Below are positions 13,012 through 55,181 of a stretch of DNA of 64,000 nucleotides, one piece after another. The notes beneath the pieces are model-generated. The model worked only from the letters and a program-made list of their open reading frames with translations, searched no databases and was not told where the DNA came from. This DNA is from Streptomyces sp. NRRL WC-3626 (GTDB lineage: Bacteria; Actinomycetota; Actinomycetes; Streptomycetales; Streptomycetaceae): NCBI RefSeq assembly GCF_000718785.1, contig NZ_JOCA01000009.1:315215-379214 (forward strand), in the 5' to 3' direction. The stretch's first letter is position 1; the number at the start of each line of letters is the position of its first letter. Position numbers and translations under genes: made by a program.

Positions 13012-14604
13012 TCACCCCGAGGCCAGCTGTTCCGCTATCTCACTGATCCAGCCTGCGGTCTTCGCCGGGTCGTCGAGGGTCTGCGCCCATGCTTCAGGGT
13101 CCAGCCTGTGGTCGGTGGGGCCCGCTTTGAGGGCGATGAGGAGGGACCTCGCGGATTCCCTCATCTCGGGCGTCGTGTCGCCGCTGCCGGGGATGCCGGG
13201 GCCCGCCGCCAGAGCGTAGATCTCGCGCGCCATGGCCTGGCGTTCGCCCTTCGACACCTTCTTCCAGAACGTCAGGGCGTGCTTCAGCGAGTCACCTCGG
13301 GATGCGGCGTCCGCCGGGGTCTCGCCCTCCGGCGCCCAGCGTTCGGGGTGGCGTTTCTCCTCGTAGCGCTTCGTGGCGGCGCGGAGCGCCTTGTACAGGG
13401 TGACGCCGAGGACGAGGCCGGCGCCTGCCCCGGCGAGGCCCCACCCGACCGGGTTGCTCGCCAGCCCGGCCGTTCCCGCCGCGACCGCCGTCACCACGCC
13501 GGCCGCGGCCTTGGTGGACTCGCCCACCGCGCCGCCGATCGCCTCTTTGCCGATCTTGGTGAGCTGCTTCTTCTTCGCGTACTCCTGCGCCCTGGCCAGC
13601 CTGTCCGCCTCCCCCTCCCACCGTCTCTCCGTGCGGTGGATGGTCTCGGCGGTGTCACGGACCTCACCCATCGCCTCCCAGGCGGCGTCGATGGCCTCGG
13701 AGACGAGCTCCAGCCGTTCCTCGCCCTCGTGGTCCCAGTAGGCGTCCAGCGCGACGTACGCCTCCGCCGCGGCCCATTCGGCCTGCTCGTACGACTCGTT
13801 CAGCCGGGTCAGCGCGGCCGGCTGGACGAGGTGGGGGTCTCCGAGTTCCTTCACCCTCTTGTACTTGCGGGCCGCTCCCCCGACCCGGAAGGCCGCCCGC
13901 ATGCCCTTGATCGCGCCGACGGAAGCACTGGCGATACCGCTCGCCTCGGACGCCACCGCGGCGTCCGCCGCCTTCTGGACCTTGGTCACCTCCTTGGCGA
14001 TGGCCGCGCTGTAGCTTCCCGAACCGGCGGCGGCGATGACCGCGTCGGTCCCCTTGACCTTGGCCTTCTTCTGCGCCGTGTGGTGCTTGGCCCCGGTCTC
14101 GTGCGTCTTGGCGTCCTTCATGTTCTTGTACGCGTCCATGCCGCTGACCACGGCGCCGGAGGCCTCCGTGAGGAGGTTCCCCGACGCGGCGGAGGTCCCC
14201 GAGGCGGCGGCGGAGTGCTTGAGGCCCTCGTTGGCCGCGGCGGCGGCCTGCTGGGTGAAGCCCGCGTTGACGGGGGTCTGGACTCCCTTGATGAAGGTGT
14301 CGATGGGTTCGAGATTCTTCTTGAACCTGTCCAGGAGCCCGGCGATCCGGTCGCGATAGCTCTTCTTCTTCGCCCCGGCGGACGCGTCACCGTTCTCCGG
14401 CGCCTTCCCCTTGTCCGCGCTCCTGGCACGCTGCACCGCCGCGGCCGTGGCCCGGTTGCCGGCGCTGGACTGCATCTGGAGGAAGGCCTGCCCCACCGGG
14501 TTCCGGGACGGACTCCCGGCCCGGCTCCCTTCCTGACGCTGCCGGGCCGACGTCGGGACGGCCGCGGACTGCCGTGCCGAGGTATGGCGGGCCGGGATGC
14601 TCAT
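13012..14604 (-). CDS. Large helical protein with contractile-injection cargo signature
   Basis: 530 residues from the second ATG at 14604, which sits 7 nt after AAGAGG; ATG 14610 is closer. Residues 1-40 are disordered. Residues 42-61 (FLQMQSSAGNRATAAAVQRA) fit the 'Lqr.aGNaAv..llqR' motif found at the N-terminus of proteins associated with extracellular contractile injection systems. Then come a lysine-rich coiled region, long alanine-rich helices, and a glycine-rich hydrophobic hairpin around 'GTAGLASNPVGWGLAGAGAGL' (about residues 385-425) that could insert in membranes. No signal peptide is present. It is a candidate cargo or toxin; no catalytic site is recognised. Confidence 0.6.
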   Translation of the reverse strand: MSIPARHTSARQSAAVPTSARQRQEGSRAGSPSRNPVGQAFLQMQSSAGNRATAAAVQRARSADKGKAPENGDASAGAKKKSYRDRIAGLLDRFKKNLEPIDTFIKGVQTPVNAGFTQQAAAAANEGLKHSAAASGTSAASGNLLTEASGAVVSGMDAYKNMKDAKTHETGAKHHTAQKKAKVKGTDAVIAAAGSGSYSAAIAKEVTKVQKAADAAVASEASGIASASVGAIKGMRAAFRVGGAARKYKRVKELGDPHLVQPAALTRLNESYEQAEWAAAEAYVALDAYWDHEGEERLELVSEAIDAAWEAMGEVRDTAETIHRTERRWEGEADRLARAQEYAKKKQLTKIGKEAIGGAVGESTKAAAGVVTAVAAGTAGLASNPVGWGLAGAGAGLVLGVTLYKALRAATKRYEEKRHPERWAPEGETPADAASRGDSLKHALTFWKKVSKGERQAMAREIYALAAGPGIPGSGDTTPEMRESARSLLIALKAGPTDHRLDPEAWAQTLDDPAKTAGWISEIAEQLASG

Positions 14605-39399: not shown

Positions 39400-40464
39400 T
39401 CAGACCGCCGGGGCCGACCGGAGATGGTGGGCGGATCTGGCGGTGTCGGTGACGTTGGAGAGGAAGCCCTGGGCTCGGGGGGAGGCGTTCCTGGTGAGCC
39501 AGCTGGGGTCTATGTCGCACACGGCGACGCGTACACCCGTGCCGGCGAGGGCGAGGGGCAGGGTGTGGACGACCGTGGAGGGGAAGCTGAGGACGGTGGC
39601 GCCGATGGGGCCGCGCCGGGCGATCAGCTCCAGCGGCAGCTCGGGGCGGACGATCTCCAGACCCGTCTCGACGGCGAGCCGGTGGAGTTTCTCCGTGCTC
39701 TCGCGGCGGTGGGCGAAGTAGCGCTTCGCGCCGTGCGTGGTGACCAGGGCGCGTACGGCCTCCAAGTAGGCGTCGGCGTCCACCACGCCGGTCTCCACCA
39801 GTGAGGTGCCGACCATGTCGGCGCCCCGGGTGACGCGGGGCGGGCCGAAGCGTTCGCGGGTCCACGCGAAGGTGTGGGGGGTGACGGTGACGCCGGGCGG
39901 GGTGTCCTCCATGGGCATGGAGGTGAAGACCTCCACCGTGCGCTTGGCACCGGGGGTGAGCCGGCGCCGGGCGGCGGCGGACACGGGGGCGAGGACGAGT
40001 TCGCGGGGGCCCGGGCGGCCGCCCTTGCGGTGCCAGCGCACCAGGCGTTCGCCCCGGGCCAGCTGGCCGACGAACTCCATGGTCGCGGTGCCGTCGTCGA
40101 CGACGACGACCTCACGGGCCCGGGTGATCGTCAGCAGCAGCTGGACGTAGCGGGAGAAGGGGTCGCCGAGGACGACCCGGGTGGCGCGGCGCAGCGGGCC
40201 GGTCAGTCCGCCGACCGTCTGGAACGGCGCGCCGGCTCCGCCCCGCGCCTCCTCCCAGCGGACCTCGTGGCCCTCGTCGCGGGCCAGTTCGGCCATGCGG
40301 CGCAGCTGACCGCGGGTCATGGGGTCGAGGGGGGACAGCACCACGAGGGTGAGCCCCACGCCGGGCGCATGCGCGTGCGCCCACTCCAGCACGTTGAGCA
40401 GTTGTACCGGGCTCTCGACGAAGGCGAGAGTGTGGGGACCGGGCAGGCCGGCGCGGGGGCTCAT
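39400..40464 (-). CDS. Polysialyltransferase/GT52-like glycosyltransferase
   Basis: A 354-residue soluble protein. The start (FVESPVQLLNVLEWAH) has the 'eSPlQllnalE' pattern of bacterial sialyltransferase-like families, followed by Rossmann strands (LTLVVLSPLD, then REVVVVDDGTATM). A second half (GATVLSFPSTVVHTLPLALA) is like the CMP-donor side of these GT-B enzymes. It is the last gene of the operon 44264-39400, after the synthase and the CMP-transferase. Transfer of a CMP-activated nonulosonate is the likely activity. Confidence 0.7.
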   Translation of the reverse strand: MSPRAGLPGPHTLAFVESPVQLLNVLEWAHAHAPGVGLTLVVLSPLDPMTRGQLRRMAELARDEGHEVRWEEARGGAGAPFQTVGGLTGPLRRATRVVLGDPFSRYVQLLLTITRAREVVVVDDGTATMEFVGQLARGERLVRWHRKGGRPGPRELVLAPVSAAARRRLTPGAKRTVEVFTSMPMEDTPPGVTVTPHTFAWTRERFGPPRVTRGADMVGTSLVETGVVDADAYLEAVRALVTTHGAKRYFAHRRESTEKLHRLAVETGLEIVRPELPLELIARRGPIGATVLSFPSTVVHTLPLALAGTGVRVAVCDIDPSWLTRNASPRAQGFLSNVTDTARSAHHLRSAPAV

Positions 40465-40516: not shown

Positions 40517-41455
40517 TCAGACGCCGACGGGCTCGCCGGCGGCGGTGGCGATCTCCTGCTCGGCGACGACGCCGGCCACGCGGCGCAGCTTCTTCATCGG
40601 GCCGAGCTCGGAGTCGTAGACCTTCTTGACGCCGTCGCCGAGGGAGGCCTCGATGGTGCGGATGTCGCGGACCAGGCGGGTCAGGCCCTGCGGCTCGACG
40701 GAGGCGGCCTGGTCGGAGCCCCACATGGCGCGGTCGAGGGTGATGTGGCGCTCGACGAAGACGGCGCCGAGGGCGACGGCGGCCAGCGTGGTCTGCAGGC
40801 CGGTCTCGTGGCCGGAGTAGCCGATCGGGACGTTCGGGTACTCCTGCTGGAGGGTGTTGATGACGCGGAGGTTGAGCTCCTCGGCCTGCGCCGGGTAGGT
40901 CGACGTGGCGTGGCACATGAGGATGTTGTCGCTGCCGAGGACCTCGACCGCGTGGCGGATCTGCTTCGGGGTGGACATGCCGGTGGAGAGGATGACCGTC
41001 TTGCCCGTGGAGCGCAGGGCGCGCAGCAGCTCGTCGTCGGTCAGCGAGGCGGAGGCGACCTTGTGGGCGGGGACGTCGAACTTCTCCAAGAAGGCGACGG
41101 CCTCGGTGTCCCACGGGGAGGCGAACCAGTCGATGTTCTTGGACGTGCAGTACTCGTCGATCTGCCGGTACTCGTCCTCGCCGAACTCGACGCGGTGGCG
41201 GTAGTCGATGTACGTCATCCGGCCCCAGGGGGTGTCGCGCTCGATGTCCCACTGGTCGCGCGGGGTGCAGATCTCCGGGGTGCGCTTCTGGAACTTGACC
41301 GCGTCGCAGCCGGCCTCGGCGGCGGCGTCGATCAGCTTGAACGCGTTCTCGAGGTCGCCGTTGTGGTTGATGCCGATCTCACCGGTGACGTAGACGGGGC
41401 GGCCGGGGCCGGCCTCGCGGGTGCCGAAGGTGCGGATGCGGGAGTTGGTGCTCAT
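40517..41455 (-). CDS. Nonulosonate (NeuB-family) synthase
   Basis: A 312-residue TIM-barrel enzyme that condenses phosphoenolpyruvate with a six-carbon sugar (or its phosphate) to a nine-carbon sugar acid. Family motifs: YVTGEIGINHNGDLENAFKL, DAVKFQKRTPE, 'DWFASPWDTEAVAFLEKF', ILSTGMSTPKQI, GYSGHETGL and FVERHITLDRAMWGSDQAAS. It ends about 40-60 residues earlier than NeuB enzymes that carry a C-terminal SAF antifreeze-like domain, which is absent. With the HAD-fused CMP-transferase next door, a Kdn- or sialic-acid-like product is inferred. Confidence 0.92.
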   Translation of the reverse strand: MSTNSRIRTFGTREAGPGRPVYVTGEIGINHNGDLENAFKLIDAAAEAGCDAVKFQKRTPEICTPRDQWDIERDTPWGRMTYIDYRHRVEFGEDEYRQIDEYCTSKNIDWFASPWDTEAVAFLEKFDVPAHKVASASLTDDELLRALRSTGKTVILSTGMSTPKQIRHAVEVLGSDNILMCHATSTYPAQAEELNLRVINTLQQEYPNVPIGYSGHETGLQTTLAAVALGAVFVERHITLDRAMWGSDQAASVEPQGLTRLVRDIRTIEASLGDGVKKVYDSELGPMKKLRRVAGVVAEQEIATAAGEPVGV

Positions 41456-41469
41456 GATCTGGCGTTTCC

Positions 41470-42900
41470 TTACTTGGGGAGGGAGTCGAGAGAGGGACCG
41501 AGGATCCAGCCGGCGATCTCTCGGATCGCGCCGTCGCCGCCGGGGAGGGTGGTGACCGCGCGTGCGGCGCCGCGTACGACGTCGTGGGCGCTCGCGACCG
41601 CCACGGGCCAGCCCACGAGGGCGAAGCACGGGAGGTCATTGACGTCGTTGCCGACGTAGAGCACGCGCTCGGGCGCGATGCCCTGTTCCTCGCACCACTG
41701 CTTGAGGGCGAGGTCCTTGCGGTCGATGCCGTGCAGCACGGGGAGCTTGAGCTTGCGTGCGCGGGCGGCGACGACCGGGTTCTGTTCCGTGGACAGGATC
41801 AGCAGCTTGAGGCCGCTGCGGCGCAGGGCCGCGATACCGAGTCCGTCGCCGCGGTGCACGGAGACGAACTCCCGTCCGTCGGAGTCGATCAGCACCCGGT
41901 CGTCGGTCTGGGTGCCGTCGAAGTCGAGGACGACCGCGTCGATGTCCTGCGCGGTCGGGAGGGCGCCGGGCCGCTCCGCGTCGAAGAGCGGGGCGAGGGC
42001 GCGGGCCCGGGCGAGCTCGTGCGGGTCGTCGATCTCCAGCACCCGGGCCGGGTCGGTGCGCACGAGTTCGGTACGCCCGAAGAACCGGTGCCGGTGCGTC
42101 CGGAAACCGGCCGCGTCCATGGCGTAGGCGGCACCGGTCTCCAGGAAGTCCTGGGGCCGGTCCTGCCGGCGGGGGCGGAACGCCTTGTCGTGGTTGACGC
42201 CCTGGCCTCCGGCGGAGGCCGCCGGAGATGTGTGCCGGGTGTCCACGGCCGCGACCGGAGCGGCGCCGGGCGCGGCCCCGCTGCCCGCGAAGGTGCCGGG
42301 CGCGGGCGCCGGGGCGACGTCCGCGGCCGGGCTGCTCACCGGCTCGGCGGAAACGGCCGCCGTGGCGGCCGGTGCGGTGCCGGGCGCGGGCTCGGCCGAC
42401 GCCCCGGTGCCGGTGAACGGCGTGGGGACGGGATCGTCCCCCGTGTCGCGCCAGATGAAGCCGTGGAACGGGGCGACCGTCACCGCCGTGTCGGCGGTTC
42501 GCGTGGCCACCGCGGCCGCTACCGCGTCGATGTCCTCGCGGATCAGGAAGGGGCTGGTGCACTGGACGAGGAGGACGACGTCGACCGGGGCGCCGTGCAG
42601 CGCCTCGTGGGTGTCCATGGCGTGCAGGACCGCGGCCTCGGAGGTGGCGGTGTCGCCGGCGATGGCGGCGGGCCGCAGGACGACCTCGGCGCCGGCCTGC
42701 CGGGCGGCGGCCGCGATGGCCTGGTCGTCGGTGGAGACGACGACGTCGGTGACGTACCGGGCGGCCCGGCACTCGCGCACGGCGCGCGCCACCAGGGGGA
42801 CACCGCCGACGGGGGCGAGGTTCTTCGCGGGAACGCCCTTGGAGCCGCCGCGCGCGGGGATCACGGCGAGCACTCGGCGCACCGTCGGCGGTCGGGACAT
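41470..42900 (-). CDS. CMP-nonulosonate cytidylyltransferase fused to HAD phosphatase
   Basis: A 476-residue bifunctional protein. Residues 8-150 begin an acylneuraminate cytidylyltransferase domain (LAVIPARGGSKGVPAKN nucleotide loop; QCTSPF); the rest of this domain returns at 240-300 (RRQDRPQDFLETGAAYAMDA). Between them lies an unusual 75-80 residue Ala/Pro linker (about 155-232). Residues 320-476 are a KdsC-like HAD phosphatase (DFDGTQTDD nucleophile pair at D326/D328, late GNDVND). It probably dephosphorylates the 9-phosphate and activates the sugar as CMP-nonulosonate. It lies 14 bp upstream of the synthase gene. Confidence 0.9.
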   Translation of the reverse strand: MSRPPTVRRVLAVIPARGGSKGVPAKNLAPVGGVPLVARAVRECRAARYVTDVVVSTDDQAIAAAARQAGAEVVLRPAAIAGDTATSEAAVLHAMDTHEALHGAPVDVVLLVQCTSPFLIREDIDAVAAAVATRTADTAVTVAPFHGFIWRDTGDDPVPTPFTGTGASAEPAPGTAPAATAAVSAEPVSSPAADVAPAPAPGTFAGSGAAPGAAPVAAVDTRHTSPAASAGGQGVNHDKAFRPRRQDRPQDFLETGAAYAMDAAGFRTHRHRFFGRTELVRTDPARVLEIDDPHELARARALAPLFDAERPGALPTAQDIDAVVLDFDGTQTDDRVLIDSDGREFVSVHRGDGLGIAALRRSGLKLLILSTEQNPVVAARARKLKLPVLHGIDRKDLALKQWCEEQGIAPERVLYVGNDVNDLPCFALVGWPVAVASAHDVVRGAARAVTTLPGGDGAIREIAGWILGPSLDSLPK

Positions 42901-42932: not shown

Positions 42933-44264
42933 TCACAGTTCGCCCATGCGGCGGATCACCGGGGCGACGCGCTGCACTCCGTGCCGGTAGGCGCCGCGCG
43001 CCGCCCGGCGCACGATCTGCCGGACCGGTCCGGGTTCCTTGTCGGCGGCGGGCGCGCCGGGCAGCGGGGTGCCGTCGGGGCCGAGGTGATGGCGGGCGAG
43101 GAGGCCGGGCAGATAGCCGGGCGCGGTGACGGGCGTGTAGTACGGGGCGAGCGGCGGCAGTCCGCCGGGGCGTTCGAGCAGTTCGGTGATGCGTGCGCGG
43201 GCGGCGTCGAAGGCGGTCTCGTACGAGCCCTCCGCGGCGACGCCCTGCCGGGCCACCCACCGCGGGTCGGGCTCGGGGCGGTGTCCGGCGTCGAGCTGGT
43301 CCCAGGAGGCGAGGCAGCCGGAGCCCACGAAGTGGTGGTTGCCGAGCGCTTCCCGGATACCGAGATCGGTCAGGACGACCGTGGGGATACGGCGGTGCAG
43401 CGACTCCAGGGCGGCCGTGGAGCTGACCGTGACGAGGAGGTCGGTGCGGTCGAGGATCTCGCCCATGTGCCCGTACACCAGGCGGAAGTTGGGCGGCGGG
43501 TCCAGCCGCTGGGCGAGCTTCTGGTAGGGCAGTTCCTCGATGTGGGTGGTGTGTTCGCCGGGCTTGGAGCGCAGCTTCAGCAGCCCCTCGCGTCGGGGGT
43601 GCGGGGGGGCGTGCCCGAGGAGCCGGTCCAGCAGGTACGTACGGTCCCCGCGGCTGTCCGGCACGGAGGGCTGGGCGGCGAACACCACGGTGTAGGGCCT
43701 GTGCCCTTGCTTCGCAGACGGCTCGTGTTCACCGGTGTAGGCGGCTCCGCCGAGGAACGGCAGGGCGACCTCGGTCACCGACGAGGAGTCGGCGCCCACT
43801 CCGTCGTACACGGCGCGGAAACGATCCGCGTCCTGGCGGGAGTTGGCGAGCACCAGATCGGCGCCGTGCCGCAGCAGGAGGCCGTCGGCGAGCTTCTCGT
43901 AGACGACACCGACGTATCCGGTGACGACGACGGGCCGGTTCGGCCGGTCCTCCCAGACCCGCCCCAGTCCGTGCAGCATCGCCTGCGCACCGCCGCCGAC
44001 CAGGGCGAGCACGAGGACGTCGTACGACTCCTCGCGCATCGCGCGCAGGAACTCGACGGCGGTGACCTCGCGGAGCGAGTCCGCGTGGACGCCGACCTCG
44101 CCGAGCTGGCGGGCGGTGGGGGTGGCGCGTCCCCGGAGCAGGAATCCGTCCAGGTGGATGTCACGCGGCGCGACCCGGTCTGCGGTGAGCGCGCCCCATT
44201 TCCACCGGGTGTCGGAATCCGCGAGGACCGCGACCCTGAGGGGTTTCGTTGCACTTGCTGGCAC
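42933..44264 (-). CDS. DUF6716 putative glycosyltransferase
   Basis: A 443-residue GT-B-like protein and the first gene of the four-gene operon. RVAVLADSDTRWKWGALTAD opens the N-terminal Rossmann fold. 'PVVVTGYVGVVYEKLADGLL' and the LRSKPGEHTTHIEELPY segment mark the interdomain region. TDLLVTVSSTAALESLHRRI, followed by PTVVLTDLGIREALGNHHFV, forms the likely nucleotide-sugar pocket. DUF6716 proteins accompany nonulosonate genes in actinobacteria. It is divergent from the GT2 gene at 44463; the 198-bp gap should hold both promoters. Confidence 0.82.
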   Translation of the reverse strand: MPASATKPLRVAVLADSDTRWKWGALTADRVAPRDIHLDGFLLRGRATPTARQLGEVGVHADSLREVTAVEFLRAMREESYDVLVLALVGGGAQAMLHGLGRVWEDRPNRPVVVTGYVGVVYEKLADGLLLRHGADLVLANSRQDADRFRAVYDGVGADSSSVTEVALPFLGGAAYTGEHEPSAKQGHRPYTVVFAAQPSVPDSRGDRTYLLDRLLGHAPPHPRREGLLKLRSKPGEHTTHIEELPYQKLAQRLDPPPNFRLVYGHMGEILDRTDLLVTVSSTAALESLHRRIPTVVLTDLGIREALGNHHFVGSGCLASWDQLDAGHRPEPDPRWVARQGVAAEGSYETAFDAARARITELLERPGGLPPLAPYYTPVTAPGYLPGLLARHHLGPDGTPLPGAPAADKEPGPVRQIVRRAARGAYRHGVQRVAPVIRRMGEL

Positions 44265-44462: not shown

Positions 44463-45449
44463 GTGCCCAAGCTTTCCGTGATCGTCCCGTTCTACAACGT
44501 TCGGCAATTCGCCCCCGACACCGTCAGAAGTCTGCGCGCGAACGCCCGGCCGGATTTCGAGTTCGTTCTGGTCGACGACCATTCCGACGACGGGACGGCG
44601 GCCGTTCTCGAACGGGCCGCCGAGGACCTGTCGGGTGTCGCGCGGGTGCGCCACATCCGCCGTGACAGGAATGGCGGGATCGCCGCCGCGCGCAACACCG
44701 GACTGGACGCCGCGCAGGGCGAGTTCCTGGCGTTCCTGGACGGCGACGACTGGCTCGCCCCCGGATATCTGTCGGAACTGGTGGCCGCCGCGGAACGGCT
44801 GGACTGCGACTTCGTCCGTACCGACCATGTGCGGGTCACCGACCGGGCCAGGACCGTACGGCGGGTCCCGGTCGGTCTGCGCGACGAGGTGCTGGACCCG
44901 CGCGACGCGATCCTGCCCGCGGACCGGACGACATCGGTGGACTATGTGTCCGTCTGGGCCGGCGCCTACCGGCGGCGGCTGCTGGAGCGGGGGCTGCTGC
45001 ACTTCACCGAGGGGCTGCACACCGCCGAGGACCGGCCGTGGACGTGGAGACTGCACCGCGAGGCGGAGTCGTTCGCCGTGGTGAATCCGCTGGGCGTGTT
45101 CTACCGGCGCGGAGTCCCCACCTCGCTCACCCGGATCGGCGACGTCCGCCGGCTGGACTTCATCCGCGCCTTCGACCGGATCGTCGAGGAGACGGCCGCG
45201 GACCGGGACGCCGGCCGGCTGCTGCCCAAGGCGGTACGCCAGTACTGCGCGATCATGGCCCACCATCTCGCCGAGGAGGACAGGTTCGAGCCGGCCGTGG
45301 CGGGACGGCTGCGGACGATGAGCGCGGCGGCGCTCCGCCGGCTGCCGCAGGACCTGCTCACGGAGGTGCTGGAGACCATGGACATGGACCGTGCCGCCCG
45401 GCTGCGGCGGCTGAGGCGCCGCGCCGGCTCGGGGAAGGGGACCGCGTGA
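44463..45449 (+). CDS. GT2 glycosyltransferase, copy 1
   Basis: A 328-residue GT-A enzyme. The N-terminal domain has KLSVIVPFYNV, FEFVLVDDHSDDGT and the DxD-like FLDGDDW metal site, followed by an 'RTDHVRV' acceptor region. The C-terminal half is helical and basic. No membrane span is seen. The GTG start has no clear ribosome site and may be leaderless. The stop overlaps the next gene (TGATG). It is paralogous to the GT2 gene at 50411 along its whole length. Confidence 0.9.
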   Translation: MPKLSVIVPFYNVRQFAPDTVRSLRANARPDFEFVLVDDHSDDGTAAVLERAAEDLSGVARVRHIRRDRNGGIAAARNTGLDAAQGEFLAFLDGDDWLAPGYLSELVAAAERLDCDFVRTDHVRVTDRARTVRRVPVGLRDEVLDPRDAILPADRTTSVDYVSVWAGAYRRRLLERGLLHFTEGLHTAEDRPWTWRLHREAESFAVVNPLGVFYRRGVPTSLTRIGDVRRLDFIRAFDRIVEETAADRDAGRLLPKAVRQYCAIMAHHLAEEDRFEPAVAGRLRTMSAAALRRLPQDLLTEVLETMDMDRAARLRRLRRRAGSGKGTA

Positions 45450-46762
45450 TGGCAGGTACCACTCAGATCTTCTGCGTCTCGTCGCTGTACGGCGTCGCCA
45501 CGCTGGCGGCCGCGATCGAGTCGGACTGCTTCGCGGAGGCGGAGCGGCGGGTGCTGCTGGTCTGCGACGTCTCCGCGGTGCCGGAGGCCGGCCCGGCGCC
45601 GGACGCGATACCGGGCTTCGCGCCGCTGCGCGACCACTTCGACGAGGTGCTGTCGTGGAACGAGGCGATCCGTCCGTTCCACCCGGCGGCGTGGACGCCC
45701 CGGGCGGAGGATGTCCCGCTGCTGGAGCGGCATCTGCGGCGGCTGTGGCGGCTCGGGGACGACCGGGTGGAGCTGGTCCTGGAGTCCCTCGCGGTGCCGC
45801 CCGCTCTCGCGATCGCGCAGGTGTTCACGGGGGCACCGGTCCATGTGTACGCGGACGGGGTGCGGAGTTACGGGCCCACCCGCAAGAAGCTCGATCCGTT
45901 GGTGGGGACCCGGGTGCGGCAGGTGCTGCATCCGGACCTGGTGCCGGGCCTGACGCCGTTGGTGCTGCGTGAGTTCGATGTGCCGGTGCGGGTGGTGGCG
46001 GCCGATGCCTTCCGGCGGGCGGTCGGGGAACTGGCGGAAGCGGGGCCGGAGTTGCCCTCGCCCGGCGCCGACTCGGCGTTGCTGCTGGGGCAGTGCCTGT
46101 CGGCGCAGGGGGTCCTCTCCTTCGGGGAGGAGGAGGACCTGTATGTGCGCATGCTGCGGGAGGCCGTCGAGCGGGGGCACCGTACGGTCGTCTTCAAGCC
46201 GCATCCCGCCGCGCCGGTCCGGCACAGCCGTGCTCTGACGGGGGAGGCGGAGCGGCTGGGAGTGTCGTTCCGTGTGCTCGATGTGCCCGTGCCGGCCGAG
46301 GTGCTGTACGAGCGGTGGCGGCCGGGGGTGGTCGTCGGGTGCTTCTCCACCGGGTTGTTCACCGCTTCCGCGCTGTACGAGTTGCCCGTCGCCTGTGTCG
46401 GGACCGGGCGGGTGCTGGAGCGGTTGACGCCCTATCAGCACGGTGACCGGGTGCCGGCCGTGCTGGCGGAGGCGGTGCTGTCGGGGGCGGGGGGTGTCGC
46501 GGGGGATGAGCTGGACGAACTGGTCGGGGCGCTGGGGTTCACCATGCAGCCGCAGATTCTGCCGCGGCTGCGTCCGGTTGCCGAGCGGTATCTCGGGCGG
46601 CACTTCGGGGTGGGTACGCGGCACTGGTTCCGGCGGAAGCGGCTGACGTCGCTGGGGTTGCCGGGGGGTATCCCGAAGCGGCTGGCGTTTCTGCCGCGCA
46701 ACGCCACGGCGCGGCGGGTGGTGCGGCGGGCGCGGGCGCTGCGGAAGGTGGTGCGGGGGTGA
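45449..46762 (+). CDS. Polysialyltransferase-family glycosyltransferase, copy 1
   Basis: A 437-residue soluble GT-B protein. Conserved parts: TQIFCVSSLYGVATLAAAIE, HVYADGVRSYGPTRKKLD, TVVFKPHPAAP and VVGCFSTGLFTASALYELP. The last two match the donor-binding HP and SS motifs of the bacterial alpha-2,8-polysialyltransferase family. It is coupled to the upstream GT2. The C-terminus is highly basic (RRVVRRARALRK), suitable for membrane-surface binding. It probably elongates the nonulosonate chain. Confidence 0.82.
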   Translation: MAGTTQIFCVSSLYGVATLAAAIESDCFAEAERRVLLVCDVSAVPEAGPAPDAIPGFAPLRDHFDEVLSWNEAIRPFHPAAWTPRAEDVPLLERHLRRLWRLGDDRVELVLESLAVPPALAIAQVFTGAPVHVYADGVRSYGPTRKKLDPLVGTRVRQVLHPDLVPGLTPLVLREFDVPVRVVAADAFRRAVGELAEAGPELPSPGADSALLLGQCLSAQGVLSFGEEEDLYVRMLREAVERGHRTVVFKPHPAAPVRHSRALTGEAERLGVSFRVLDVPVPAEVLYERWRPGVVVGCFSTGLFTASALYELPVACVGTGRVLERLTPYQHGDRVPAVLAEAVLSGAGGVAGDELDELVGALGFTMQPQILPRLRPVAERYLGRHFGVGTRHWFRRKRLTSLGLPGGIPKRLAFLPRNATARRVVRRARALRKVVRG

Positions 46763-46880: not shown

Positions 46881-46991
46881 TACTCGCATACGGACCGGGC
46901 AGCCCACTGTTCACCCCCCGTACACCCCGACGCCACCGGCCGACCGCCGCGCTGCGGCACGCTCGGCCTCCGATCGGAGGACGGTGGAAGC

Positions 46992-48188
46992 ATGACGAAC
47001 CCCCTGGCGGGATTGTTCACGGCACGGCAGAAGGAGTCCGCCAGACGGGACCTGTACGCCCGGGGCGTCCTCCTGTGCGGCGAGTACCTCGCCGCACACG
47101 ACAGCCGCCTCACCCAGGCGATCGGCACCCTCACCACCGCGCTCGACACCCCGGCCGCCGACCCCTTCGACGCCCTCCTCAAGGTCGGCGAACGTGCCCT
47201 CGAGACGGGCGAGCACACCCTCGCCCTCGGCATCGCCGAGACCTCGACGGAGATACGGCAGCGCTCCAAGGGCGCCTGGCGCCTGCGCGCAAGGGCCCTG
47301 GACGGCCTCGGCCGCGACGACGAGGCCATGGAGTCCTACGAACGCCACCTCACCCTCCTGGGCGACGGCGAGCCCGCCGACGAGGTGACCCGCGGGATCG
47401 ACACCCTGCGCCGCCGCCGCGCCTGTCTGGCGGAGGCCTCCACCCTGTTCCCCGGCAACGGCACCCCGGTCACGGCACCGGAGTTCGCCGCCCACGTGCG
47501 GGCACGCGTGGCCGAACACGGCCCCGCCGACCCCGCCGTACGCCGCCTGCTGCGGCTGTACGCCACCCACCGCCGCCTGGTCGAACGCTCCGGCATGCCC
47601 GACCCCCTGCTCGGCGGGACCACCCCGATCGGCGTCGGCGGCCTGCGCGCCCTGCTCACCGGGCGCACGGTGTGCCTGGTGTCGAACGCCGCCGAGGTCG
47701 CCGGCAGCGGCCTCGGCGCCGAGATCGACGGCTACGACCTGGTCGTACGCTGCGACACCTTCCGTATCAACAAGGGCGGCACCGGCGAACGCACCGACCT
47801 GCACGCCGTCTCACTGCGCGGCACCACCCCGTGGGACGGGCCCGCGTGGACACAACCGGCCGGTGTCCGGCTGGTGTTCGGCGACCCGGCCGGGGCGTGG
47901 CGGCGTGCCGCACGGCAGCGGCTCACCGCCGGGGCGCAGGAGCACACCGGCGACGCGTCCCTGCGCCGGCCGCTGTCCGACCCGGCACTGCTCGGCGAGG
48001 ACCGGTGGGGCACGAAGGCCGGTACCGCGTTCACCGTGCTGCGACTGCTGGACTTCCTGGACGTCAGCCCCCGCCTGGACCTCATCGGCTTCGACAAGCC
48101 CGGCCGGCTGCGGCCGGAGGAGGCCAAGTGGGTCATGGACCGCGCGACGCACGTCGACGACAGCAAGATGAGGATCGCCCTCCGATGA
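46992..48188 (+). CDS. GT29 sialyltransferase-like protein with helical N-terminal domain
   Basis: A 398-residue soluble protein. Residues 20-145 form TPR-like helices. Residues 224-270 fit the GT29 sialylmotif L: CLVSNAAEVAGSGLGAEID, then YDLVVRCDTFRINKGGTGER. Residues 340-368 resemble sialylmotif S (GTKAGTAFTVLRLLDFLDVS, then LDLIGFD), and a late His387 (ATHVDDSK) fits the catalytic histidine. GT29 is best known from animal Golgi sialyltransferases. Here it would use CMP-nonulosonate made at 40517-42900. The ATG has a GGTGGAAG site; the stop overlaps the next gene. Confidence 0.78.
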   Translation: MTNPLAGLFTARQKESARRDLYARGVLLCGEYLAAHDSRLTQAIGTLTTALDTPAADPFDALLKVGERALETGEHTLALGIAETSTEIRQRSKGAWRLRARALDGLGRDDEAMESYERHLTLLGDGEPADEVTRGIDTLRRRRACLAEASTLFPGNGTPVTAPEFAAHVRARVAEHGPADPAVRRLLRLYATHRRLVERSGMPDPLLGGTTPIGVGGLRALLTGRTVCLVSNAAEVAGSGLGAEIDGYDLVVRCDTFRINKGGTGERTDLHAVSLRGTTPWDGPAWTQPAGVRLVFGDPAGAWRRAARQRLTAGAQEHTGDASLRRPLSDPALLGEDRWGTKAGTAFTVLRLLDFLDVSPRLDLIGFDKPGRLRPEEAKWVMDRATHVDDSKMRIALR

Positions 48189-50365
48189 CCCCCACCGCCC
48201 CCTCCTCCGCCGACGACCGGAGCACCGTCACCGGCAGACGCCGGATCGCCTTCGCCGTCCACACGGACACCGCCGGGCTGCCCGCCCTGCCCACGCTGCT
48301 GCGCAGCCTCGCGCTCACCAACCCGGGGGTGTGCGAGGACTTCGTGGTGCTGCACCCGGGGCTGCCGGACTCGTCGTTCGACGGGCTGCGCCGGCTGCAT
48401 CCGCGTGTGGTGACGCGCCGGGCGGACGGCCGCGGGGACGTCTTCCGGCTGGACGGCTACGACACCGTCGTCGCCTTCACCCCGGCCATGGTCGTCCTCG
48501 GCGACATCGGCGCACTGCTGCGGCTGCGGCACGGGGTCGGCGCCGTACGGCAGCTGGTCTGCGACGCGGAGGGACGGGAGCGGCGTACGGTGCTCCCGGA
48601 CGGGCTGCTGGTCGTCCAGCGGGCGGACGCGGACGGGATGTCCGAGGACGTCCTGACGCCGGTCGACGCCCGGTACGACTTCCTCACCCGACGCCTCCAC
48701 GACGACACGCCCGTGCCCGCGCATGTCGCCGTGCTCCACTTCACCGGCCCGTTCGACGAGCACGGGTACGGTCCGGCCGCCGAGGCCCGCCGCCGTTTCG
48801 AGCTGGACGACGAGGAGTTCCGGGCCGCCTACTGCGCCCTGCCGGGTGAGAAGCACCCCGACCTGCTGGCGCATCTCGCACCGCCCCTGCTCCGGGCCCG
48901 CCCCTCCCTGGACCTGGCCCGTACGGTCGCCGACGTGTACCGCAGACAGGGACGTCACGACGAGGCCGTGGACGTGCTCGCCCCTGTCGTCGGCGACCGG
49001 CTGGACGCGCCGCGCTGCCAGGAGACGCTCGGCGTCTGTCTGATGGCGCTGTCGCGCTACGACGAGGCCGAGGCCCGTCTCCTCCTCGCGACGGCCTCCC
49101 CCGATAGCGCCCCGCGCGCCTTCGCCCAGCTCGCCCGCCTCGCCTGGCTGTGCGGCCGGGAGGAGGACGCGCACGCCTACGCCCGTGACGGGCTGGAGGC
49201 CGACCCCACCGACGCCGGCTGCCACGCCTGGTACGTCCGTACCCGCGCGGACGGACCGGAGCCGGAGGCGCTGCCCGCGGCCGAGCAGCTGGCGCATGTG
49301 GCGTTGTTCGCCGAGGGCCAGGAGAACGCGGGCGACAAGGTGCTGCCCGAGGCCGTCCGCACGTGCTTCGGCCCCGACACCGGGCCGCGCCACTGGTACC
49401 GGCAGCCGGTGCACCGGCTGGTCGACGAGGCCGCGCTGGAGGAGCTGAACGCGCGGCGCGGGGTGGTCGTGGGCGGCGGCGGGCTCTTCCTGCCGGACAC
49501 CTCCCCCAACGGCAACAGCCACTGGCAGTGGAACGTCCCCGACGGCCTGCTGTCCCGGCTGACCGCCCCGCTGGCCGTGTTCGCCGTCGGCTACAACGTG
49601 TTCGACGGTCAGCTCTACCGCCGGAGCCGGTTCGCGGAGAGCCTGCGCGTCCTGGTCGAGCGGTCGGCGTTCTTCGGGCTGCGCAACCACGGTTCGATCG
49701 AACGGGTCCGCGAACTGCTCCCCGCCCCACTGCGTGACCGTGTCCGCTACCAGCCCTGTCCGACCACGGTGTGGCGCCACCTCGTCCCCGGCCCGCTCGA
49801 CCCGGTGGAGCGGGACGACACCGTCCTGGTGAACTGTGCCTACGACCGCGCCGGCCTGCGCTTCGGCCACGACTACGGCCATTTCCTCGCCCAGACGGCC
49901 CTCGCCCTGAAGGGCCTGCGGGAGCGGGCCGACGTCCGGTACGCGGCCCATATGCCGGCCGATGAGAAGTTCGTGCACGACCTGCGGCGGGAGCACGGCG
50001 TCGCGCTGCCCGTGGAGCAGCTGTACGACATGACGAACGACGGGATCCGGGAGCTGTACGGCCGGTCGCGGCTGGTGATCGGGATGCGCGGGCACGCGGG
50101 GATGATCCCGTTCGGCTGCGGCACGCCGATCCTCAGTCTCGTCTCCCATCCGAAGCTCGCCTACTTCCTGTCCGACATCGGACGGGAGGAGTGGGGGCTG
50201 TCCGTGCACGACCGGGAGCTCGGTCCCCGGCTCCTGGAGCGGGCGACGGCCGTCCTGGACGACCACGCGGCCGCCGTGGCGGACGTGCACGGCGCGCAGA
50301 AGCTCCTGTGGGAGACCACACGGTCGAACCTCGACGAACTCGGGAAGACATTCGGCCGGACCTGA
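48185..50365 (+). CDS. Fusion of degenerate GT8-like domain, TPRs and polysaccharide pyruvyltransferase
   Basis: 726 residues. Residues 19-210 resemble GT8 enzymes (IAFAVHTDTAGLPALPTLLR, VVAFTPAMVVLGDI, VAVLHFTGPF), but the metal-binding DxD is replaced by TPAM near residue 99. Residues 240-385 are TPR-like (YRRQGRHDEAVDVLAPVV). Residues 405-690 are a polysaccharide pyruvyl transferase domain (VVVGGGGLFLPDTSPNGNS, FFGLRNHGSIERV, VIGMRGHAGMIPFGCGTPI). It probably adds pyruvate ketals to the polymer. The ATGA overlap couples it to the GT29 gene, with which it shares the helical-repeat theme. Confidence 0.85.
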   Translation: MTPTAPSSADDRSTVTGRRRIAFAVHTDTAGLPALPTLLRSLALTNPGVCEDFVVLHPGLPDSSFDGLRRLHPRVVTRRADGRGDVFRLDGYDTVVAFTPAMVVLGDIGALLRLRHGVGAVRQLVCDAEGRERRTVLPDGLLVVQRADADGMSEDVLTPVDARYDFLTRRLHDDTPVPAHVAVLHFTGPFDEHGYGPAAEARRRFELDDEEFRAAYCALPGEKHPDLLAHLAPPLLRARPSLDLARTVADVYRRQGRHDEAVDVLAPVVGDRLDAPRCQETLGVCLMALSRYDEAEARLLLATASPDSAPRAFAQLARLAWLCGREEDAHAYARDGLEADPTDAGCHAWYVRTRADGPEPEALPAAEQLAHVALFAEGQENAGDKVLPEAVRTCFGPDTGPRHWYRQPVHRLVDEAALEELNARRGVVVGGGGLFLPDTSPNGNSHWQWNVPDGLLSRLTAPLAVFAVGYNVFDGQLYRRSRFAESLRVLVERSAFFGLRNHGSIERVRELLPAPLRDRVRYQPCPTTVWRHLVPGPLDPVERDDTVLVNCAYDRAGLRFGHDYGHFLAQTALALKGLRERADVRYAAHMPADEKFVHDLRREHGVALPVEQLYDMTNDGIRELYGRSRLVIGMRGHAGMIPFGCGTPILSLVSHPKLAYFLSDIGREEWGLSVHDRELGPRLLERATAVLDDHAAAVADVHGAQKLLWETTRSNLDELGKTFGRT

Positions 50366-50410: not shown

Positions 50411-51376
50411 GTGCCGAAACTGTCCGTCGTCGTCCCGATGCACAATGTGGAGGTGTTCGCCGAGAGCACGCTGCGCAGTCTCGCCGCCAACGCGCATCCG
50501 GACTTCGAGTTCCTGCTCGTCGACGACTGCTCCACGGACGCCACGCCCTGGGTGATCGACCGCTGGGCGGAGAAGCTCCCGGGCGCGCGCGTGATCCGGC
50601 ACGAGACGAACAAGGGGATCGCGCAGGCCCGCAACAGCGGTATCGACGCGGCGGAGGGCGACCTCGTCACGTTCCTCGACGGCGACGACTGGTACGGGCC
50701 GCGTCATCTCGCGGGCATGGTGCGGGCGATGGAGGAGCTGGGCTGCGACTTCGCCCGCACCGACCACGTCCAGGCGACCGGTACCGAGCGGGTGATCCGG
50801 CGGCCCCCGGCACGGGTGCGCAACGCGGTGATGGACCCGCGGGACGGGATCGCGCCCGCCGACATGGAGACGATGGTCGACTACCCCTTCGTCTGGGCCG
50901 GGATCTACCGCCGGCACCTCTTCGACGACGGCGGGATGCGTTTCGCGACGGAACTGCGCACGGCCGAGGACCGGTTGTGGATCTGGCGGCTGCATCTGAA
51001 GGCCCGTACGTACGCCTCCCTGGGGCTGCACGGGGTGTTCTACCGGCGGGGCGTGGCGACCTCGCTCACCCAGATCAAGGACGACCGCCAGCTGGACTTC
51101 ATCCCGGCGTACGACGCGCTGCTGCGGGACGTCCGGGAGGACCGGGAGGCGGACCGTTTCCTCCTCAAGGCCGTCCGGACGTACTGCGCCATGATCGCGT
51201 TCCATATCGGCAAGGCGGACGCGTACGAGCCGGCCGCGGCCCAGCGGCTGCGGCGCGAGACGCGGGCCGCACTCCAGCGGATGCCGGAGCAGGCGCTGGA
51301 GGAGACCCTCAGGACCATCGACAGCACACGGAGCAGGTTGCTCAGCCGCCTGCGTGACGGGCGGAAGGCTGCCTGA
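50411..51376 (+). CDS. GT2 glycosyltransferase, copy 2
   Basis: A 321-residue paralogue of the GT2 at 44463: KLSVVVPMHNV, FEFLLVDDCSTDAT, FLDGDDWYGP, 'ARTDHVQATG', and the same LHGVFYRRGVATSLTQI ending. GTG start with a GAAAGAGAG site. It is followed after 3 bp by the second polysialyltransferase-like gene, so the pair repeats the order seen at 44463-46762. Confidence 0.9.
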   Translation: MPKLSVVVPMHNVEVFAESTLRSLAANAHPDFEFLLVDDCSTDATPWVIDRWAEKLPGARVIRHETNKGIAQARNSGIDAAEGDLVTFLDGDDWYGPRHLAGMVRAMEELGCDFARTDHVQATGTERVIRRPPARVRNAVMDPRDGIAPADMETMVDYPFVWAGIYRRHLFDDGGMRFATELRTAEDRLWIWRLHLKARTYASLGLHGVFYRRGVATSLTQIKDDRQLDFIPAYDALLRDVREDREADRFLLKAVRTYCAMIAFHIGKADAYEPAAAQRLRRETRAALQRMPEQALEETLRTIDSTRSRLLSRLRDGRKAA

Positions 51377-51379
51377 TCC

Positions 51380-52735
51380 ATGCCCCACACGACCCAGATC
51401 TTCCAGGTCTCGACGCTCTACGGAGCGGCCACCCTCGCCGCGGCGCTGGACGCGGGCCTGTACGGACCGCGCGGCGGGGCCCGGCGCGTGCTGCTGGTCT
51501 CCAACAACGCGGCGATCCCGGAGACCGCGCTGCGCGTCGACGAGATGTACGGCTACGGTCCGATCGCCGCCCGCTTCGACTCGGTGGTCAGCTGGAACGA
51601 GGCGATCAGCCCCTACCACCCGAGCACCTGGGGTCCGCGCGGGCACGACACGGTGCTGTGGCAGCGGGCGTTCCGGCTGCGGTGGGACATCGACGAGCGG
51701 GACATGATCGAGCTCGCCGTGGAGTCGATCCAGGCCAACCCGGCCCGTGCGCTGGCGGCGATCTTCTCCGAGGCCGCCGTCGACGTGTACGCCGACGGGC
51801 TGATGAGCTACGGCCCGACGCGGGAGAAGCTGCCGCTGACCATCGCGCGCCGTGTCCGCCGGCTGCTGCACCTCGATCTGATCCCCGGTCTGACACCGCT
51901 GCTGCTGTCGGAGTACGGCGTCGAGCCCGGGATCGTGCCGGACGAGGCGTTCCGCGGTGTGCTCGACGAGATCTCCCGGGAGGCGGCGGACGATCCGCGG
52001 CTGGCGCCGGTCCTGGAGGAGGCGCCGACGGCCGTGCTCCTCGGCCAGTACCTCGCGGCGATCAACATCCTGAGCGCGCGGGAGGAGGAGGACCTCCATG
52101 TCCGTATGCTCGCCGGGGCGGTGCGGGCCGGGCACCGGTCCATCGTCTTCAAGCCGCATCCGACGGCCCCCGCGGGCTACTCGGCGGCGCTGAGCAAGGC
52201 GGCGGCGGACGCGGGCGTACGGCTGACCGTGCTGGACGCTCCGCTGCTGGCGGAGACGCTGTACGAGCACTGCCGTCCCGAGCTCGTCGTCGGCTGCTTC
52301 TCGACGGCGATGGTGACCGCGTCCGCCTACTACGACGTGCCCGTCGCCCGGGTCGGGACGGCGCTGGTGATGCGGCGGCTCCGGCCCTACCCGAACAGCA
52401 ACCGGGTCCCGCTGGCCGTGATCGACCACGTGGTCCCCGACCTGGAGCGCGAGGACACCCCGGCCCTGGTGGGCCGGGCCCCGGACACCCTCTCCCCCCT
52501 GATCCGCGCGATCGGCTTCTGCATGCAGCCGAAGACGTACCCGGGGCTCCGCGCGGAGACGACGAGCTGGCTGGAGTCGCACCTCGCCACCACGCCCGAC
52601 TACTACTTCCCGGACCTCCGCCTGGCCGAACTCACCCTCCCGGGCAGCACCCCCCGGACCCGGGCGAAGATCCAGGCAGCCCGGGCAAAGCGGGTAGTAG
52701 GCCGAGCCGTCCGCCGAACCACCAAGAGAAAGTGA
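51380..52735 (+). CDS. Polysialyltransferase-family glycosyltransferase, copy 2
   Basis: A 451-residue paralogue of the 45449 protein: TQIFQVSTLYGAATLAAALD, DVYADGLMSYGPTREKLP, IVFKPHPTAPAGYSAAL, and VVGCFSTAMVTASAYYDVP. The shared HP and CFSTA motifs form the CMP-donor site. The C-terminus is basic (RAKRVVGRAVRRTTKRK). It may make a different linkage from copy 1, or the two may act as initiating and elongating enzymes. Confidence 0.82.
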   Translation: MPHTTQIFQVSTLYGAATLAAALDAGLYGPRGGARRVLLVSNNAAIPETALRVDEMYGYGPIAARFDSVVSWNEAISPYHPSTWGPRGHDTVLWQRAFRLRWDIDERDMIELAVESIQANPARALAAIFSEAAVDVYADGLMSYGPTREKLPLTIARRVRRLLHLDLIPGLTPLLLSEYGVEPGIVPDEAFRGVLDEISREAADDPRLAPVLEEAPTAVLLGQYLAAINILSAREEEDLHVRMLAGAVRAGHRSIVFKPHPTAPAGYSAALSKAAADAGVRLTVLDAPLLAETLYEHCRPELVVGCFSTAMVTASAYYDVPVARVGTALVMRRLRPYPNSNRVPLAVIDHVVPDLEREDTPALVGRAPDTLSPLIRAIGFCMQPKTYPGLRAETTSWLESHLATTPDYYFPDLRLAELTLPGSTPRTRAKIQAARAKRVVGRAVRRTTKRK

Positions 52736-52764: not shown

Positions 52765-52782
52765 GTGCCGCTGGGGCGGCAC
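52765..52782. terminator. Hairpin in a Streptomyces palindromic element after the second module
   Basis: GTGCCGC (52765-52771) pairs with GCGGCAC (52776-52782) around TGGG, 30 bp after the stop. The surrounding sequence is a widespread Streptomyces intergenic element. Confidence 0.6.
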
Positions 52783-52795
52783 GGGTGGGCGCAGC

Positions 52796-52889
52796 GGCAC
52801 CCCGCAATCGCCGGGCCGCGCAACACCCCCCGCCCACCCCAGCACACGGCACCCCGCAAACGCCGGGCCGCGCAACACCCCCCGCCCAC
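52796..52889. repeat. Two 42-bp direct repeats
   Basis: Units 52796-52837 and 52848-52889 differ at one base (GCAATCGCC versus GCAAACGCC) and are separated by 10 bp. They lie in the 263-bp gap before the acyltransferase gene, which otherwise shows only C-rich sequence. Confidence 0.8.
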
Positions 52890-52998
52890 ATCCCACCCCG
52901 CACGAAACAAACCCCACCCGGCCAACCGAGACGCACCGGCCACACCCCCTCCACCCGCCCGACAACTCCCGTACACCGCACCCCCCGAAAGTGACGCG

Positions 52999-54090
52999 GT
53001 GCCGAACGACATCGCCGTACACCGCCTGCCGCAGCAACCGGGCAGCCCCGCCCAGGAACAGACCCCCGCCCCCGCGAGGGAGCACCGCTACGACATCGAC
53101 CTGATGCGGCTGATCTGCTCCGCCACGATCATGCTGGGCCATGTGGGCGCCCAGTTCATCCGCGCCACCGGCAACGACCCGTCGAACGGCCCGGGTTCGT
53201 ACTGGGCGGGCCACATCGCCGAGGCGATCAACCCCTTCGCCGTCCCGATGTACTTCGCCATAGCCGGCTGGGCCGTCCTCGTCGGCGCACCCCCACGGGA
53301 CAGCGCCCGCATGTGGCAGCGGATCGTCCGCAACATCGTCCCGCTCTTCGCGTGGACGGCGGTCTACCTGGTCTGGACCTGGCTGCGGAACCGCAACGAC
53401 CGCCCGATGACGGAGCTCGCGGAGTACTCCCTCTTCGGCTCCGTGGAGCCCGCGTACCACCTGTGGTTCATGTACACGTACATCCCGATCATCATGCTGC
53501 TCGCCTTCGCGATGCTGATCAAGGCGGGCAAGCGCCCGTACGGTCTCGGCGCGGCACTGCTCGGCATGGCGGTCCTGCCCAGCGTGCTGACCACGGCCAC
53601 CGAGGTCACGGGCCGTGAGATGGCCCCGGTGGCCTGGGGGTTCGGCACCTACTCCCTGGTGTACGCGGTCGGCGGCGCGCTCCTTTTCGCCCTCCCCGCC
53701 GGGATCGTGCGCAAGCGCCGGCCGCTGTACTTCCTCCTGCCGCTCACCATGGCCGGCGCGCTCTGGTACAACACGCAGATCCACTACGTGATGCCCAACG
53801 CGCACCTCTTCGTCGCCGCGATGAGCATCTGCGTGCTGCTCCTGATCAGCAGGATCCGCGTCCCCGAGAAGCGGCGCCCGCTGCTGCGGCGGCTCGCCGA
53901 CGCCGCGCTCGGCGCGTACATGGTGCATGTGCTGTTCGTCGAGGAGATCGTCACCCCGCTGGTCTCGCCGGACCTGAGCGCGCCGGTGGCGGGGGCGCTG
54001 CTGGTCGGCCTGGTGGCCCTGGTGATGGCGCTGTCGTTCGCCACCAGTCTGCTGTGGGGGAAGCTGAACCTGCGCAGGCTCCTCGGCTGA
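52999..54090 (+). CDS. Acyltransferase family 3 membrane protein
   Basis: 363 residues from the GTG at 52999; the preceding frame is repeat-derived. About ten hydrophobic helices. RYDIDLMRLICSATIMLGHV at the start carries the aspartate-arginine pair of the family, but the histidine is in GHVG rather than the usual position. 'FAVPMYFAIAGWAVLVG' and YHLWFMYTYIPIIMLL are conserved helices, and GAYMVHVLFVEEIVTPLV closes the family pattern. It probably O-acetylates the surface polymer. Confidence 0.85.
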   Translation: MPNDIAVHRLPQQPGSPAQEQTPAPAREHRYDIDLMRLICSATIMLGHVGAQFIRATGNDPSNGPGSYWAGHIAEAINPFAVPMYFAIAGWAVLVGAPPRDSARMWQRIVRNIVPLFAWTAVYLVWTWLRNRNDRPMTELAEYSLFGSVEPAYHLWFMYTYIPIIMLLAFAMLIKAGKRPYGLGAALLGMAVLPSVLTTATEVTGREMAPVAWGFGTYSLVYAVGGALLFALPAGIVRKRRPLYFLLPLTMAGALWYNTQIHYVMPNAHLFVAAMSICVLLLISRIRVPEKRRPLLRRLADAALGAYMVHVLFVEEIVTPLVSPDLSAPVAGALLVGLVALVMALSFATSLLWGKLNLRRLLG

Positions 54091-54254: not shown

Positions 54255-55181
54255 ATGAACAGCCGCGCTCTGCTGACCAGTTCCGCTTCCCGGCGTCTGC
54301 TGCGCCCGGTCGCCGATCTCATCGACCAGCGCATCGACCGGCGGCTGCGGGCGGCGGCCGCCGCCGACGCGGCGGACAGGGAGGCGCTGCGGGACGCGGC
54401 GGAGACGGTGCGGCACCGGCAGCTCACCCTCGATCTGCTGCTCGGCCCGTCGGGGCGCGGACTGTCCCGGATCGTGAGCCCCGGCCCGCTGAACCGGCTG
54501 CACTCCGAGGTGGCGGAGCTGACCGGTGACCGGGACGCGGCCGTGCGCAACGTCGCCGCCGCGTACCGGCTGCTGGTCGCGCTGGAGTCGCTCGGGGCGG
54601 GACGGATCGCGGGCGGCACCATGAACATCTGCGGCAAGCTCGGCACGATCCCGCTGCTCGGTCCGCCGAACGACGAGGTCCTGGAGATCGGCACCCTGTA
54701 CGGCATGTTCTCCGCCGGGCTGATCCGGATGCTGGAGCGCGACGGCCGGGAGCCGAGCGTGACGATCGTCGACCCGTTCGCCGGTGTACAGCTCCAGCCC
54801 GGCACCCCACGGCGTTCCGACCCCTCCGGCACCCCGGTCGACGAGGCCGCCGTACGCACCAATCTCGCCCTGGCCGGTCCGGCGGGTGTGGCGGCCCGGA
54901 TCCGGAAGGGCTTCTCCGAGGACCCGGACACCCGTGCCGCCGTCTCGGACCGCCGTTACGGCGTGATCGTCGTCGACGGCGACCACTCGGCGGAGGGGGT
55001 CGCGAAGGACCTCCAGTGGGCGGAGGAGATCGCCGCGCCGGGCGGCATCGTCGTACTCGACGACTTCGGCGACCCCAAGTGGCCCGGCATCGAGGAAGCC
55101 CTGGACAAGCACCTCACCGGCGCCACCCGCTTCACCTACCTCGGCAAGGCCTCCCTCTCGGCGTTCCTGCGCGCCGCCTGA
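54255..55181 (+). CDS. Class I SAM-dependent methyltransferase, polymer-associated
   Basis: 308 residues with a long N-terminal helical part (about 1-125, Arg/Ala-rich with coiled-coil tendency), then a Methyltransf_24-type domain: DEVLEIGTLYGMFSAGLIRM (SAM loop), VTIVDPFAG (acidic loop), 'YGVIVVDGDHSAEGVAKDL' and GGIVVLDDFGDPKWPGIEEA. The acidic VDGDH and DDFGD residues fit metal-dependent sugar O-methyltransferases. It lies at the end of the surface-polymer cluster and is likely to add O-methyl decoration. Convergent with the TetR gene. Confidence 0.88.
   Translation: MNSRALLTSSASRRLLRPVADLIDQRIDRRLRAAAAADAADREALRDAAETVRHRQLTLDLLLGPSGRGLSRIVSPGPLNRLHSEVAELTGDRDAAVRNVAAAYRLLVALESLGAGRIAGGTMNICGKLGTIPLLGPPNDEVLEIGTLYGMFSAGLIRMLERDGREPSVTIVDPFAGVQLQPGTPRRSDPSGTPVDEAAVRTNLALAGPAGVAARIRKGFSEDPDTRAAVSDRRYGVIVVDGDHSAEGVAKDLQWAEEIAAPGGIVVLDDFGDPKWPGIEEALDKHLTGATRFTYLGKASLSAFLRAA

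Follow-up and report, generated by a model that had tools for sequence, protein, structure and literature searches.

A GT29-fold TPR protein with a degenerate active site in a Streptomyces wall-polymer locus, a likely scaffold beside a second GT2-polysialyltransferase pair

Results

The gene and its locus

We analysed a stretch of 64,000 nucleotides from Streptomyces sp. NRRL WC-3626 (the window), and in it the open reading frame (ORF) 46992-48188, which had been predicted to encode a working, animal-type sialyltransferase of glycosyltransferase (GT) family 29. This ORF is real and conserved, and joins a TPR region to a GT29-fold domain (Table 1). Its codon-position GC content (0.74/0.55/0.93) has the bias typical of a real gene, GGAGG lies upstream of its start, and ATGA marks the overlap of its stop with the beginning of a partner gene. 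A phmmer search reported 301 relatives, and the 120 listed come, where named, nearly always from Streptomyces and twice from Actinacidiphila, and a few of them have been named automatically as 'glycosyltransferase family 29 protein'. A plasmid search gave no match, and among viral contigs 55 stretches fitted a pattern, of which none was confirmed.

The domain layout was borne out. Pfam TPR matches at the N-terminus are weak, every one under the cut-off, and over roughly the first 200 residues of the structural model the matches consist of TPR structures. PF00777, the GT29 family, matches residues 229-275, in the sialylmotif L region, but with 18.6 of 23 bits, which is under the curated cut-off. 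A profile of the C-terminal domain only retrieved seven sequences from the PDB up to an E value of 10, all seven of them GT29 (best E 0.01). In the structural comparison GT29 structures rank first for both models compared, and the GT29 fold was found for the window protein; GT42, the family of Cst-I and Cst-II, is not among the 50 structure matches listed for its model, which does not in itself exclude GT42.

Table 1. Features of the locus, with positions in the window.
Feature	Position	Strand	Remarks
neuB-type nonulosonate synthase ORF	40517..41629	-	true start probably further in
neuA-type cytidylyltransferase fused to HAD phosphatase	41470..42882	-	start approximate
DUF6716 putative glycosyltransferase	42933..44264	-
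GT2a	44463..45449	+
polySTa	45449..46762	+	PF07388, 88 bits
PHO-box-like direct repeat	46909..46926	+	83 bases upstream of the GT29-type start, 1 mismatch
GT29-type gene	46992..48188	+	398 aa, ATG start; TPR and GT29-fold protein, active site degenerate
TPR-like region	47058..47567	+	residues 23-192
GT29-fold domain	47574..48185	+	residues 195-398
Sialylmotif L region	47664..47807	+	residues 225-272; N232 kept, RxN Asn = D255
Site without about 17 residues, including the VS His	48090..48131	+	residues 367-380; E377, W380 retained
His387	48150..48152	+	originally proposed candidate; downstream of true VS position; His in 91/117 relatives
Partner gene	48185..50365	+	726 aa; degenerate GT8 domain, TPR, polysaccharide pyruvyl transferase domain
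FTPAM at GT8 DxD position	48476..48490	+	LDTDM in intact partners
PS_pyruv_trans domain of partner	49388..50143	+	residues 402-653
GT2b	50411..51376	+	first gene of second GT2-polyST pair
polySTb	51380..52735	+	A-2_8-polyST, PF07388, 99 bits
Acyltransferase family 3	52765..54090	+
Methyltransferase	54255..55181	+	Methyltransf_24

The surroundings also agree with what had been predicted, namely, a CMP-nonulosonate locus, with neuB and a neuA-HAD fusion nearby, and two genes of the polysialyltransferase (polyST) type. The HAD part of the neuA fusion scored 72.8 of 180 bits, under the cut-off, against the KDN-9-phosphatase model. The ORF 39400-40464 (minus strand) is conserved, with a relative at 6319-7299 of locus L069, and has near its N-terminus FVESPVQLLN, a pattern reminiscent of other bacterial sialyltransferases; a GT52- or polyST-like identity for it was considered and set aside, with no Pfam match worth noting and a single PDB match at E 0.41. 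The teichulosonic-acid polymer of Streptomyces is Gal-Kdn (PMC11481543, PMC7831098), and the cluster SCO4873-SCO4882/SLI_5146-5156, which is under PhoP control (PMC13011467), is associated with a phosphate-free Gal-Kdn wall polymer (PMC13011467, PMC8003754, PMC7831098). We liken the window locus to this cluster by its presumed polymer type, which may likewise be Gal-Kdn.

Loss of active-site residues in the GT29-type protein

The related proteins form two groups, namely, an intact group, mostly from Streptomyces where named (88 aligned of the 120 listed relatives, from 362 phmmer matches reported), and a degenerate group, which includes the window protein (117 aligned of 121, that is, the query and its 120 listed matches, with P0043, P0048, P0080 and P0083 left out). 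The domain alignment holds 10 of 14 sequences. Motif residues are numbered after P0203 unless a window residue is named. An E value of 6e-5 for PF00777, which is about the cut-off, is reached by 72 of the 88 intact homologues, as against seven of the 117 proteins of the window group.

First, N310, S311, N333, H353, N358, P416, G419, N421, H462 and E467 are each present in 88/88 intact proteins, which thus all carry the CMP-binding Asn-Ser, the RxN Asn, P-T-x-G and H-x4-E. Second, the window group has Asn at N310 in 42/117, the window protein among them (N232), and Asp at N333, the RxN Asn, in 116/117 and Asn in one; the residue here in the window protein is D255, equivalent to N170 of human ST3Gal1. 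His at H353 and Asn at N358 occur in none of the 117 and Asn at N421 in one, and at G419 of the S motif there is Ala in 113 and Gly in four. Where P-T-T-G is expected the window protein has A343-G344-T345-A346, so that P-x-x-G is incomplete, its Gly being Ala346. Third, the segment with the VS His, H462 of H-x4-E, is absent in all 117 proteins, the window protein included, with the Glu kept; the window protein lacks 17 residues between F367 and E377. The group retains H349, E467 and W470 in 117/117, and His271 of the window protein is conserved in 117/117. After the S motif the intact bacterial proteins have F-Y, and the motif III His, the catalytic acid of GT29 enzymes, could be located in neither group.

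Judged by its sequence, the window protein has therefore lost active-site residues of a GT29 sialyltransferase, namely, the VS His, the RxN Asn and the S-motif Gly, and because it fails these defining tests we do not file it as one. Of the original prediction the GT29 ancestry stands and the activity is not supported; of the sialylmotifs L and S that were said to be recognisable, L is partly kept and S is incomplete. A sialyltransferase that is still active because its active site has been rearranged, with for instance His387 or His271 as base, would fit the GT29 fold, the conservation of His271 (117/117) and of His387 (91/117), purifying selection and the CMP-nonulosonate genes of the locus. 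However, His387, which had been singled out as the key histidine, is not the VS His: it is located after the VS position, outside the true motif, is absent in 26/117 relatives and lacks an equivalent among the intact proteins. Moreover, nearly the whole group has lost the VS His segment together with the RxN Asn and S-motif Gly, and in human ST3Gal1 the base is H316 of H-x4-E, the mutant H316A being inactive (PMC6884586). We consider this alternative unlikely.

The partner gene

Partner genes lie within reach at 89 of 92 distinct loci; L016 stops at a contig edge, and at L119 and L120, whose genomes each carry one polyST, degenerate GT29-type genes stand without a partner. A genome-wide search (E 1e-30) of 121 genomes found the partner in 28, and every one of these belongs to the 30 genomes that carry a GT29-type gene.

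The state of the GT8 domain follows the type of the GT29 gene. Intact-type partners scanned singly (L066, L104, L112, L115 and L069) pass PF01501, the GT8 family, with 60-71 bits, and the degenerate-type partners scanned (window, L029 and L036) have no PF01501 match; in a 15-member partner alignment the matches number seven, which equals the number of intact-type members. With duplicates removed, the GT8 DxD (LDTDM) is found in 18/20 intact-type partners, L069 and L116 being unreadable (the longer L069 partner ORF passes PF01501), and in 0/70 degenerate-type partners, of which L059, L121 and L122 are unreadable. Among readable loci this amounts to 18/18 versus 0/67. The pyruvyltransferase motifs are near-identical across the groups, with GGGGLF in 20/20 intact-type versus 73/75 degenerate-type partners (before duplicate removal). 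At L069 of Demequina oxidasica (9365-13170), GT29 and GT8-pyruvyltransferase genes, both above Pfam cut-offs, lie beside neuA and neuB, and the stretch fetched there holds no polyST match.

Since the catalytic His and the GT8 metal site are both lost, the pair is probably a scaffold and does not add sialic acid. Alternatively, the protein may have been neofunctionalised into a transferase with another donor or acceptor, as its own fixed positions might suggest, namely, G277 and P280 (117/117 each, versus His in 85/88 and Asn in 88/88 of the intact group) and D255 (116/117), together with a constraint equal to that of the intact group. Against this, no new catalytic motif was recognised, and the GT8 DxD of the partner is lost in the same group of loci, which points to a shared loss of catalysis; we regard neofunctionalisation as rather unlikely.

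Locus types across genomes and a second GT2-polyST pair

In 121 Streptomyces genomes the intact type occurs in 18, the degenerate type in 12, the window's own genome included, and both in none, a co-occurrence that in a simple test is not significant (p 0.13). The class given to a genome agrees with the H-x4-E test in 29/29 loci fetched (18 and 11). Intact-type loci and griseus-type loci share a common order, namely, GT29 type, partner, polySTa, GT2a, DUF6716, neuA and neuB; in the subgroup to which the window belongs, the block of GT29-type gene and partner is inverted beside polySTa. In the window the two GT2-polyST pairs (44463-46762 and 50411-52735) resemble a duplication, polySTa and polySTb being 48% identical.

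Counts were restricted to distinct loci flanked by 6 kb or more on each side, five duplicates being dropped. Beside neuA/neuB, 40/40 degenerate-type loci (44/44 before duplicates were dropped) and 0/12 intact-type loci carry both GT2b and polySTb, as do 0/2 other intact-type loci. At the level of genomes, 17 of the intact type have one polyST and one has none, and of the degenerate type ten have two and two have one (Fisher p 2e-6, kinship ignored). At least two polyST occur in 0/18 intact-type genomes versus 37/103 of all others (p 0.0014, kinship ignored). Streptomyces shenzhenensis has two degenerate GT29-type copies (L007 and L028), the stretch fetched for L028 being without neuA/neuB.

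In an unrooted tree of 93 of 98 proteins, a single branch, with support 100/100, sets the degenerate group apart from all other proteins. The intact state would be ancestral, given the motifs common to the intact group and animal GT29. A scan of 396 genomes of the phylum with the intact profile, four candidates per genome being scored, matched 16 genomes, namely, the window's own genome, one strong match in the same genus (4.9e-233), one weak match (1.1e-11) over the part with the L motif, from a different family within the class, and 13 matching TPR positions only.

Selection and PHO-box-like repeats

Because NG86, the method used for the ratio of nonsynonymous to synonymous substitution rates (dN/dS), is biased in GC-rich genes, only comparisons between groups were used; pairs more than 98.5% identical were excluded, and the estimates were made before duplicates were dropped. 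Median dN/dS of the GT29-type genes is 0.353 in the degenerate group (35 usable of 400 sampled pairs) versus 0.349 in the intact group (16 of 136), and for their partners 0.317 (70 of 400) and 0.286 (84 of 190), respectively. Both proteins thus appear, from these sequence comparisons, to be kept under purifying selection. A decaying pseudogene, which the loss of most catalytic motif residues might bring to mind, is scarcely credible: 117 relatives align at length, dN/dS is the same as in the intact group, and the ATGA overlap with the partner is found at 47 of 69 loci (starts placed mechanically).

A direct repeat similar to the PHO box lies upstream of the window gene, and L002, L003 and L021 have one too, likewise at about -83. 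With at most two mismatches the window has two such matches versus 0.45 expected, a number reached in 9 of 100 shuffles, and with at most three mismatches the whole window has nine versus 5.7 expected, that is, no enrichment. Sites with at most three mismatches lie upstream in 34/76 degenerate-type and 4/19 intact-type related loci, duplicates included, and in 51/1900 control pieces. The upstream repeat and the partly kept L motif could fit a non-catalytic binder of CMP-nonulosonate or polymer that senses or regulates chain assembly. Human ST3Gal1, however, binds CMP through N147, S148 and N170, and N170, which contacts the CMP phosphate (PMC6884586), corresponds to Asp in 116/117 of the window group, so that we find a sensor very improbable.

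Discussion

We consider it fairly probable that the window protein is a degenerate GT29-fold TPR protein which, together with its partner, was replaced and then retained as a scaffold. The ancestor would have been an intact actinobacterial TPR-GT29 protein paired with a GT8-TPR-pyruvyltransferase in nonulosonate wall-polymer loci; the window gene is related to such intact proteins, which presumably are enzymes. In the window's lineage, catalytic residues have been lost in both transferase domains, GT29 and GT8, and beside neuA/neuB the second GT2-polyST pair, which co-occurs with the degenerate type, probably took over the nonulosonate and hexose transfer steps. Both degenerate proteins would then have been kept in what is most likely a scaffold role, their TPR regions serving the conserved pyruvyltransferase-like domain. 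Taken in its full form, namely, that the second GT2-polyST pair replaced the GT8 and GT29 pair and that both displaced enzymes, having lost their active sites in one and the same lineage, are kept at undiminished constraint as TPR scaffold subunits of a complex that makes the polymer, around the pyruvyltransferase domain, the proposal is a tentative one.

Several observations weigh against this explanation. First, 17 distinct degenerate-type loci with 6 kb of flank on each side lack a close neuA/neuB, nine of them having only the GT2b-polySTb pair, eight no polyST and none two. Second, two of the 12 degenerate-type genomes carry a single polyST and no partner. Third, at least two polyST matches, some perhaps fragments, occur in 27 of 91 genomes without a GT29-type gene, so that a second polyST needs no GT29 loss. 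Fourth, as the degenerate group sits on one branch, the active-site loss may have had a single origin, the link with the second pair then resting on one event. Finally, N232, H271 and E377 are still present in the window protein, and sequence alone cannot prove an enzyme dead.

Compared with the GT29 sialyltransferases ST6Gal1, ST3Gal1 and ST8Sia3 (PF00777), the window protein is alike in the fold of residues 195-398 and in its L-motif match, but differs in its lost VS His, RxN Asn and S-motif Gly, in the TPR in front and in its sub-cut-off PF00777 score. The intact actinobacterial TPR-GT29 proteins (for example P0167 and P0203, with the NCBI name 'glycosyltransferase family 29 protein') share its domain order and partner and, in Streptomyces, its neighbours; unlike it, they keep the L, S and VS residues and have GT2b/polySTb at none of 14 loci with enough flank. 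A bacterial GT29 had been thought unusual, and a 2014 review did place bacterial sialyltransferases outside GT29 (PMC4202792); nevertheless, bacterial GT29 proteins were reported in 2018 from Proteobacteria (Petit et al. 2018, PMC5811610), which we set beside the window protein by description only. The main text of that report holds no occurrence of Streptomyces or Actino-, and our literature search on GT29/family 29, with most subscription journals outside it, gave no title on the TPR-GT29 family.

The label 'glycosyltransferase family 29' covers intact and degenerate Streptomyces proteins alike, which is a warning for automatic naming. If the explanation favoured here is true, the animal sialyltransferases would have actinobacterial counterparts, beyond Proteobacteria, in the intact TPR-GT29 proteins, and the window would contain a natural pseudo-glycosyltransferase pair that can be compared with intact relatives from the same genus. 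A Kdn-type wall polymer of Streptomyces would then be built by machinery that uses two formerly catalytic transferases as structural parts.
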